From positions 1-27,493 of the IMG/VR virus record IMGVR_UViG_3300035189_000030: a stretch of DNA of 27,493 bases; one strand, written 5' to 3'. This DNA is from a virus. Under the pieces are notes generated by a model. That model worked only from the letters and a program-made list of their open reading frames with translations. It did no database searches and was not told the DNA's origin. Shown here piece by piece: positions 25,627 to 27,493 of the stretch. Every line of letters begins with the position of its first letter. The stretch's first letter is position 1. A program made the translations under genes and the position numbers.

Positions 25627-26190
25627 ATGCCCATCACCGAGCAACAACTTCAACGCATCATGCCCAACGCCCGCCGCCAAGCGGGCGTTTTTGTATCTGC
25701 CTTAAACGCAGCGATGACCAACAGGAAGATCGATACACCCAAGCGCCAGGCCGCATTCCTCGCCCAGGTCGGACACGAATCGGGTCAGCTGCAGTACGTA
25801 CGCGAACTGGGCAGCGATCAGTACCTCAGCAAATACGACACCGGCTCTCTGGCGGCCAAGCTCGGCAATACCCCGGAAGCCGATGGGGACGGTCAGCGTT
25901 ACCGTGGCCGTGGGTTGATCCAGATCACCGGGCACGATAACTACCTGCGCTGCAGTCTGGCGCTGTTCGGTGATGAACGATTGTTGCGCACACCGGAGCT
26001 GCTCGAGCAGCCGCAATGGGCGGCAGAGTCGGCGGCGTGGTTCTGGTCGGTGAACGGGTTGAATGCCCTAGCGGATCAGGAGCAGTTCAACACCATCACC
26101 CGTCGGATCAATGGCGGCCTCAACGGTCTGGAGGAACGCCTGCAGCTGTGGGCCAGGGCGAGGGCGGTGTTATGCGTCTCTTCGACCTGA
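25627..26190 (+). CDS. Endolysin, GH19 chitinase-like
   Basis: This 187-residue muramidase-type endolysin is of the glycoside hydrolase 19 fold. Glu51 in VGHESGQ and Glu60 in YVRELG, nine residues apart, fit the catalytic pair of phage GH19 endolysins. RYRGRGLIQITGHDNY (91-106) is the conserved substrate-binding signature, and WFWSVNGLNALADQ follows. No signal peptide is seen, so export depends on the holin at 4132. AGGAGG lies at 25617-25622. A perfect terminator-like hairpin lies within codons 14-22 (25668-25692). It overlaps the Rz gene by 19 bases. Confidence 0.9.
   Translation: MPITEQQLQRIMPNARRQAGVFVSALNAAMTNRKIDTPKRQAAFLAQVGHESGQLQYVRELGSDQYLSKYDTGSLAAKLGNTPEADGDGQRYRGRGLIQITGHDNYLRCSLALFGDERLLRTPELLEQPQWAAESAAWFWSVNGLNALADQEQFNTITRRINGGLNGLEERLQLWARARAVLCVSST
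25668..25692 (+). terminator. Terminator-like hairpin inside the endolysin gene
   Basis: CGCCCGC (25668-25674) pairs perfectly with GCGGGCG (25681-25687) around CGCCAA, then TTTTT (25688-25692). Structurally it is a complete intrinsic terminator, but it lies about 40 bases inside the endolysin coding sequence. It might attenuate lysis gene transcription when translation or antitermination is weak, or be a coincidence of codons for NARRQAGVF. Confidence 0.5.
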
Positions 26191-26720
26191 TCCCTGCGCA
26201 GTTCCGTATCGCTGCTACCGGCGTGCTGTTGTTGATGGTGGGCGCCGGATCTGCGGCGTTGGCCTGGACTGCGCAGGACTGGCGTTATGGCCTTGTGTTG
26301 GAGCGCCAGGCCCGGCTGCAGGCGGACACCCTCAACGAGATATCCAAAGCGTCTGCTGACCTGCAGCGCATCGAGCAGGAAAAACGCCTGGCCCTGGAAC
26401 TACGCCTGCAGAACAAAGACGAAACCCACCACAAGGAACTGACCGATGAGCAAACCAAGCAGGCTCGCCTGCGTGATCGCCTGGCTACTGCTGATCTGCG
26501 GCTGTCAGTCGTACACGCAGCCACCGAAATCACCGGCAACTGTGCAATGCCAACCACCCCCGCCTCCGGCCGCGTGGTTCATGGCACCACAAGAGCCCAA
26601 CTTGACCCAGCGCATGCTCAACGAATTATCGGAATCACCGATACCGGCGACCAAGGATTGATTGCGCTTAAAGCTTGTCAAGCTTACGTTACGACGATAT
26701 CCCTCCGGCACCATGAATGA
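26172..26720 (+). CDS. Rz: Rz-like inner-membrane spanin
   Basis: This 182-residue i-spanin links the inner membrane to Rz1 in the outer membrane and fuses them in the final lysis step. One membrane helix is visible at about residues 12-32 (FRIAATGVLLLMVGAGSAAL), followed by a long periplasmic coiled-coil region (about 38-112, ERQARLQADTLNEISKASAD and onward, rich in Lys/Glu/Gln). ATG 26172 is chosen because the upstream extension in this frame is only the endolysin read in another frame. The stop directly abuts the stop of the opposite-strand gene at 26721. Confidence 0.8.
   Translation: MRLFDLIPAQFRIAATGVLLLMVGAGSAALAWTAQDWRYGLVLERQARLQADTLNEISKASADLQRIEQEKRLALELRLQNKDETHHKELTDEQTKQARLRDRLATADLRLSVVHAATEITGNCAMPTTPASGRVVHGTTRAQLDPAHAQRIIGITDTGDQGLIALKACQAYVTTISLRHHE
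26446..26661 (+). CDS. Rz1: Rz1-like outer-membrane lipoprotein spanin, nested in Rz
   Basis: This 71-residue reading frame lies wholly within Rz in the +1 frame, as Rz1 does in lambda. It starts with a short signal sequence (residues 1-19, SRLACVIAWLLLICG) ending in an LICGC lipobox, so Cys20 should be lipidated. The mature part is Pro-rich (CQPPPPPAAW), as in Rz1 proteins. These features, not just an open frame, support it as a real gene. Confidence 0.78.
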   Translation: MSKPSRLACVIAWLLLICGCQSYTQPPKSPATVQCQPPPPPAAWFMAPQEPNLTQRMLNELSESPIPATKD

Positions 26721-27257
26721 TTACTTTAAGCTAGGGCTAAACTTAATAGGGTTTTTTATATATGGTCTGGTGGTTTGCTCTATTAACGTATCTTTCCCAA
26801 GGGCGAGCGCGCAATTAGTAAGGGTGAGTGAAAGTATCATCACGATTAATGTCATGATTTGCTGGCTGTTGATCGTAATAATATCAGTGGTAAGCCCTAA
26901 TACTAAAACTCCAAGTGTTGCACCTAAGCCAGTTCTGGTGATAGTAAGAAATCCTGCTCCTACTTCTGCGATGTTTTTATGGATAAAATTAAAGGTGTCT
27001 ATGCTTTTGTCAGAGCTGAACCGTATACCATACTTAATGATAAATACTAGGGCGTAAGGAGCAATAAGATATGCCGAGTACTGAATTAGTGGGCCGATTG
27101 CAAGGAGACCTTGTACGATTTCATTAACATCTTTTTCGGTAGAGCTAAAGAATACAGTCGGTAGAGTTCCCAATAGAGATGCTAAGATAAATTCGCTTGG
27201 AAATTTACTTATTAAAGCAATCGTATCCCTTTTGAAATTGCTAGGTTTTTTGTTCAT
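26721..27257 (-). CDS. Unknown four-helix membrane protein, probable moron
   Basis: This 178-residue protein is encoded opposite to the late genes. About four membrane segments are visible at residues 22-38, 50-78, 101-122 and 132-153, with a basic N-terminus (MNKKPSNFKRD) and a short polar C-terminus. I recognise no family. The gene is markedly AT-rich: sampled 60-base lines hold about 37-47% G+C, while flanking late genes are richer, which suggests later acquisition. ATG 27257 is preceded by a weak GGGG ribosome site. The frame extends to 27329, but that part covers the hairpin at 27306-27342. Such isolated prophage membrane genes often alter the host surface or block other phages; that is inference. 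Confidence 0.65.
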   Translation of the reverse strand: MNKKPSNFKRDTIALISKFPSEFILASLLGTLPTVFFSSTEKDVNEIVQGLLAIGPLIQYSAYLIAPYALVFIIKYGIRFSSDKSIDTFNFIHKNIAEVGAGFLTITRTGLGATLGVLVLGLTTDIITINSQQIMTLIVMILSLTLTNCALALGKDTLIEQTTRPYIKNPIKFSPSLK

Positions 27258-27296
27258 TGGCGAGATCCCCGAGGGTGCGCGATGAAATGATTTTGT

Positions 27297-27342
27297 AAAA
27301 AGGAACGAGCCGGATGGATGCGTCAACATTCATACCGGCTCG
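27297..27342 (-). terminator. Minus-strand hairpin upstream of membrane gene
   Basis: CGAGCCGG (27306-27313) and CCGGCTCG (27335-27342) are perfect arms. Inner ATGGATG and CATTCAT extend the pairing with one mismatch and a bulge. Read leftward, the stem is followed by TTCCTTTTT (complement of 27297-27305), so it works as a terminator only on the minus strand. It could shield the membrane gene from transcription entering from the right, or act as an attenuator in its leader. Confidence 0.35.
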
Positions 27343-27416: not shown

Positions 27417-27432
27417 CTGTTCATCCATACAG
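27417..27432 (+). promoter_or_regulatory. LexA-type SOS box before methylase
   Basis: CTGTTCATCCATACAG has the exact CTG-N10-CAG form of LexA sites. With the flanking TA it matches 14 of 20 positions of the enterobacterial consensus. The half CATACAGTA is almost ideal. It ends 16 bases before the methylase ATG, where bound repressor would block transcription. A perfect palindrome TTGTGCACAA (27388-27397) lies 20 bases upstream. No strong -35/-10 pair can be named. Confidence 0.62.
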
Positions 27433-27448: not shown

Positions 27449-27493
27449 ATGTCCACACCCATCGTCCCTTGGATGGGCGGTAAACGCCGTCTG
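27449..27493 (+). CDS. DNA adenine methylase, D12 class (5' fragment)
   Basis: Only the first 15 codons are inside the window: MSTPIVPWMGGKRRL. The PW-x-GGK-RRL start is the conserved N-terminal motif of Dam-like D12-class N6-adenine methyltransferases, where it forms part of the S-adenosylmethionine site. AAAGG at 27434-27438 lies ten bases before ATG 27449. Phage methylases of this type protect phage DNA or change GATC marking. The rest of the protein lies beyond the right edge, so completeness is unknown. Confidence 0.72.
   Translation, partial: MSTPIVPWMGGKRRL

Follow-up and report, generated by a model that had tools for sequence, protein, structure and literature searches.

Morons and superinfection-exclusion proteins are already known kinds, and the role proposed below for the product of one such cargo gene is a predicted one. 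A proven minus-strand moron of the late region is the gene of Tab in Pseudomonas phage JBD26; Tab is a protein of 83 residues that disturbs virion assembly, and its gene is located between those of the terminase and has a promoter to itself (PMC10884400). Blocking of DNA entry by an inner-membrane protein is proven for SieA of phage P22 (PMC11436027). Antiviral hotspots are described for P2-like phages and satellites (PMC9122126). Like that of Tab, the gene studied here is minus-strand cargo within the late region of its Pseudomonas prophage, where conserved genes flank the fixed site that it occupies. Unlike Tab, its product is a membrane protein of 178 amino acids, the gene follows Rz, and no promoter was found. 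With exclusion proteins of the P22 SieA type the product shares, as far as prediction goes, that it is prophage-encoded, integral to the membrane and outside the lytic core, whereas it differs from SieA and other inner-membrane exclusion proteins in matching no profile of a described family and in that exclusion is putative here. A limited literature search found neither this protein family nor the site between Rz and dam (Rz-dam slot) described.

The window (the whole stretch of DNA that was analysed, 27,493 bases) is the entire IMG/VR record. It is a prophage or phage fragment of the contractile-tailed type from Pseudomonas, and it carries the markers of such a prophage: a CII-like regulator, a VapE-type primase, sheath, gpU, gpD and a GH19 endolysin. 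The features around the cargo gene are collected in Table 1. The record ends within the dam gene, whose PF02086 match (E=1.2e-22) was obtained with a full-length homologue. No Rfam match and no tRNA were detected in the window.

Table 1. Features in and around the Rz-dam slot, in coordinates of the window
Feature	Position	Strand	Basis or remark
Endolysin, glycoside hydrolase 19 family, lysis cassette	25627..26190	+	PF00182, E=9.9e-07
Rz-like inner spanin, left border of cargo slot	26172..26720	+	PHROG 2466, E=6.6e-48
Cargo gene, 178-aa four-helix membrane protein (predicted)	26721..27257	-	ORF, hydropathy, model
Leader, G-rich SD-like stretch just 5' of the cargo-gene ATG	27258..27275	-	Alignment of 12 upstream regions
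Hairpin (27306-27342) and T run, right border of slot	27296..27342	-	Terminator-like, 5' of cargo gene
LexA-like box CTGTTCATCCATACAG before dam, flanking, outside cargo	27417..27432	+	68/69 Rz-dam loci
Start of dam (D12-class DNA adenine methylase), right flank of slot	27449..27493	+	Record ends inside gene

The original prediction had described an opposite-strand ORF of low G+C whose stop codon touches that of Rz, and this description proved accurate. The ORF runs on the minus strand from the ATG at 27255-27257 to the TAA at 26721-26723 (178 codons), and the TAA abuts the Rz TGA at 26718-26720. Its G+C content is 0.378, as compared to 0.56-0.64 in windows of the 22.0-26.75 kb region. An alternative, longer ORF begins at 27329; the start at 27257 was preferred because homology across the family begins there and because the G-rich SD-like stretch precedes it. 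Among the slot-borne relatives dN/dS was 0.06-0.17, and the cargo frame is open in all relatives, with 2-28 stops in the remaining five frames. Since this is the sole frame that stays open and the dN/dS values are this low, the ORF is, beyond chance, a real gene under purifying selection.

To compare the slot between related prophages, as the original prediction had proposed, IMG/VR was scanned with Rz, which yielded 80 loci, and dam could be placed downstream in 69 of these. The gap between the two genes was empty (138-151 nt) in 60 of the 69 relatives and filled in nine, where dam stood at 639-1614 nt. The nine inserts were the cargo gene (three loci), a GrlR-like gene (three), a 193-aa gene (two) and a membrane acyltransferase (one), i.e. 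three cargo kinds in addition to the one under study. The left border of the slot falls within the final Rz codons, and the Rz C-termini of filled and empty loci are unlike each other. Taking into account that empty and filled sites occur at one fixed place in related prophages, and that the base composition of the gene is unlike that of the flanking phage genes, these observations support the conclusion that the cargo gene is a moron, which in a contractile-tailed prophage of Pseudomonas was inserted between the last late gene, Rz, and dam. Twelve slot-borne members of the family were collected (including that of the window, and one of 90% identity in Pseudomonas palleroniana LMG 23076), the lowest identity being 48%. 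All 12 are antisense to Rz, and touching stops are retained in the members of at least 67% identity.

As to the other occupants, the GrlR-like gene (PF16518; L058, L075, L085) codes for 111 aa and is antisense to Rz. The 193-aa gene (L074, L077) is also antisense and gave no Pfam match, whereas the acyltransferase (PF01757; L047) is on the same strand as Rz and is a candidate surface-modifying cargo gene. The Rz-dam gap of Pseudomonas prophages can thus be read as a list of cargo genes, some of them perhaps new phage-resistance or lysogenic-conversion genes. The slot resembles the P2-like hotspots in being a fixed site with exchangeable cargo in related prophages, and differs from them in its Pseudomonas host, in the phages concerned and in that its occupants are not recognised defence systems.

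The minus-strand hairpin predicted between the cargo gene and the methylase gene is real and conserved across the slot-borne loci; it sits upstream of the cargo gene and stands in empty slots as well, in one copy per locus whether filled or empty. Its loop and core are near-constant (GATGCGTCAACATC on the plus strand), the outer stem is variable, with changes that partly compensate each other, and directly after the hairpin on the minus strand comes a run of five T (complement of 27297-27301). The arrangement resembles that of an intrinsic terminator acting on minus-strand transcription that arrives from the right. A role as terminator of the cargo gene itself was rejected, because of the upstream position and the presence of the hairpin without the gene. 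In the leader, relatives of 67-70% identity carry AAGGA where the window has the G-rich SD-like stretch. A search of the minus strand for sigma-70-like sites found none. Because the terminator-like hairpin precedes the gene, a promoter, if any, must be a non-canonical one within the ~45-nt leader between hairpin and ATG, or expression must be of another type or mode. Thus, of the claim that a moron is expressed from the prophage, the moron part stood, whereas for expression no support was obtained; that the gene is expressed in the lysogen is something we infer, and it is the weak point of the claim.

Hydropathy analysis revealed four hydrophobic segments in the cargo protein (residues 19-37, 56-75, about 102-130 and 133-155). 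An AlphaFold model made from a 21-sequence alignment consisted of four long helices (7-36, 56-77, 83-123 and 131-160; pLDDT 76, pTM 0.65), in accord with the hydropathy, while a model made from only the five closest sequences had a pLDDT of 39. The protein is thus predicted to be integral to the membrane, with four helices joined by loops that are very short on the periplasmic side, and by the positive-inside rule both termini are probably cytoplasmic. No significant match was obtained in Pfam, PHROGs, NCBIfam, PADLOC or PDB sequences (the single PADLOC match had E=0.13), in agreement with the prediction of a four-helix protein of no recognised family. The structure-based search that had been suggested gave no confident match either: nothing scored below E 0.2 when the model was compared with PDB and BFVD, a viral structure library. 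Strong homology to structural or lysis proteins, named in the original prediction as an argument against it, was looked for and none was found. Searching phage and plasmid records by tblastn revealed no relatives.

Several weak similarities were considered and set aside. GPCR chains (best E 0.00018 in the PDB-sequence profile search) were dismissed as a chance similarity of hydrophobic helices, and ~310-aa proteins of other Pseudomonas genomes, which match profile positions about 93-145, as weak, partial and near threshold. The membrane effectors PycTM (best E 0.045, one member; not found in 60 Pseudomonas genomes) and ThsA (best E 0.13, one member) were dropped, as was Colicin_im (PF03857), which matched 0 of 11 members at E<=1.

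The protein family was built iteratively through alignments of 5 (A1), 11 (A2) and 21 (A3) sequences. With the A1 profile a family gene was found in 13 of 400 Pseudomonas-group genomes, and with the A2 profile (E<1e-10) in about 17 of the 400. The A3 profile matched 7 of 299 genomes of the family-level group, and among 369 genomes drawn from the class (Gammaproteobacteria) nothing except the centre genome. A relative of 68% identity (L087/L099) occupies the same Rz-dam slot, whereas divergent members (18-49% identity) are scattered on Pseudomonas chromosomes, outside this prophage type; some of these chromosomal relatives are broken. Length, start and invariant residues are conserved in the family. 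The residues invariant in the 21-sequence alignment are E22 in helix 1, G30, P33, and R108 and G112, the last two in a motif like GFLTxxRTGLGA in the third long helix. What was an orphan ORF thereby belongs to a defined family of proteins, and its role can be put to the test.

The chromosomal relatives were inspected for their neighbours. In a related trio of loci (L109, L110 and L158) the family member has a SIR2 protein (PDC-S65) on one side and a ThsB-type TIR protein on the other, and one of the three is near Septu PtuAB. Other relatives, one in each case, adjoin DUF4917 (PDC-S21) together with DUF2971 (PDC-S31), adjoin an AAA_13 protein (PDC-S06) and DUF4238, or have PDC-S39 at a distance of about 2.6 kb. 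A phage-integrase-family gene, of integron type in our reading, is near one relative, another relative adjoins the integrase of what we read as a putative filamentous-phage-like element, and several adjoin ordinary host genes. In 15 independent neighbourhoods 43 PADLOC families were matched at E<=1e-25, as compared to 3 in 15 windows placed at random in these genomes; many PADLOC models are redundant, and the tally by locus is about 4-5 of 15 neighbourhoods and 0-1 of 15 random windows. For this small sample the enrichment of candidate defence genes near the relatives is suggestive. The SIR2 gene occurs in 13 of the 400 genomes and has a family member alongside in only 2 of the 13; an obligate system of SIR2, membrane protein and TIR protein was therefore rejected, and the data speak for co-location in defence neighbourhoods. 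The gene order in the trio is SIR2, family membrane protein, a ~195-aa protein and the TIR protein, and in two of the three loci the membrane-protein gene is apparently frame-broken.

Because the gene is cargo by its setting and has relatives beside candidate defence genes, we consider that there is an even chance that the moron encodes a putative inner-membrane superinfection-exclusion (antiphage) protein which would protect the host cell. The protein would act from the prophage in the inner membrane (superinfection exclusion in the wide sense), where it would interfere with DNA entry of another phage or with a membrane step of that phage's growth, in the manner of P22 SieA. SieA-like action requires an integral membrane protein, and the four hydrophobic segments and the four-helix model predict one. 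The entry block, suggested only by the membrane location, is the least certain step. What counts against an antiphage role is the lack of a minus-strand sigma-70-like site, the terminator-like hairpin upstream, a defence link confined to about 4-5 of 15 loci (0-1 of 15 in the controls), the pairing with SIR2 in only 2 of 13 cases and the several relatives located by ordinary host genes. Somewhat short of an even chance is the wider proposal, made tentatively, that four-helix membrane proteins with invariant E22 and R108/G112 form an undescribed family of single-gene antiphage proteins, restricted to Pseudomonas and common to the Rz-dam slot and to chromosomal defence neighbourhoods. If the antiphage role is true, prophages and chromosomes would have in common a small membrane defence made up of a single gene.

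The alternative that survives best, unlikely as we consider it, is lysogenic conversion, in which the cargo protein would alter the host envelope (surface polysaccharide or membrane properties) and phage resistance would be at most a side effect. Membrane acyltransferases of the PF01757 type are enzymes that modify surface polysaccharides, and one of them occupies the same slot in another relative (L047, see above). The cargo protein, however, belongs to no catalytic family or known fold and exposes only short loops beyond the membrane, and no envelope-synthesis genes were recognised next to its relatives.

Distinctly unlikely, in our judgement, is an orphan immunity function, by which the protein would shield the inner membrane from a pore-forming bacteriocin or a secreted antibacterial effector. 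Immunity proteins of the colicin A type (PF03857) have about 178 amino acids and four membrane helices, so that they resemble the cargo protein in both length and helix number, and a pair of relatives (L105, L106) adjoins a gene that may be read as PAAR-like. Unlike these immunity proteins, the cargo protein has no profile similarity to Colicin_im (alignment of the family profile with a Pseudomonas Colicin_im protein by hhalign gave a probability of 0.2%) and no adjoining bacteriocin gene.

A modulator of lysis, antiholin-like or timing lysis with the neighbouring endolysin and Rz, would fit a membrane protein encoded next to the lysis cassette, but the gene is on the strand opposite to the lysis genes, matches no PHROG or Pfam lysis family (holin, antiholin, spanin), is missing from 60 of 69 relatives that share the cassette and has relatives outside prophages, which makes this role very improbable. 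That the gene is a passenger without current function in the prophage, as the lack of a recognisable promoter and the broken chromosomal relatives could suggest, is extremely improbable and already disfavoured by the selection data (dN/dS 0.06-0.17; conserved length, start and invariant residues).

The LexA-like box on the right flank of the slot has the form CTG-N10-CAG and lies 16 nt upstream of the dam start codon; this, with its occurrence in 68 of 69 Rz-dam loci, suggests a putative SOS control of dam.
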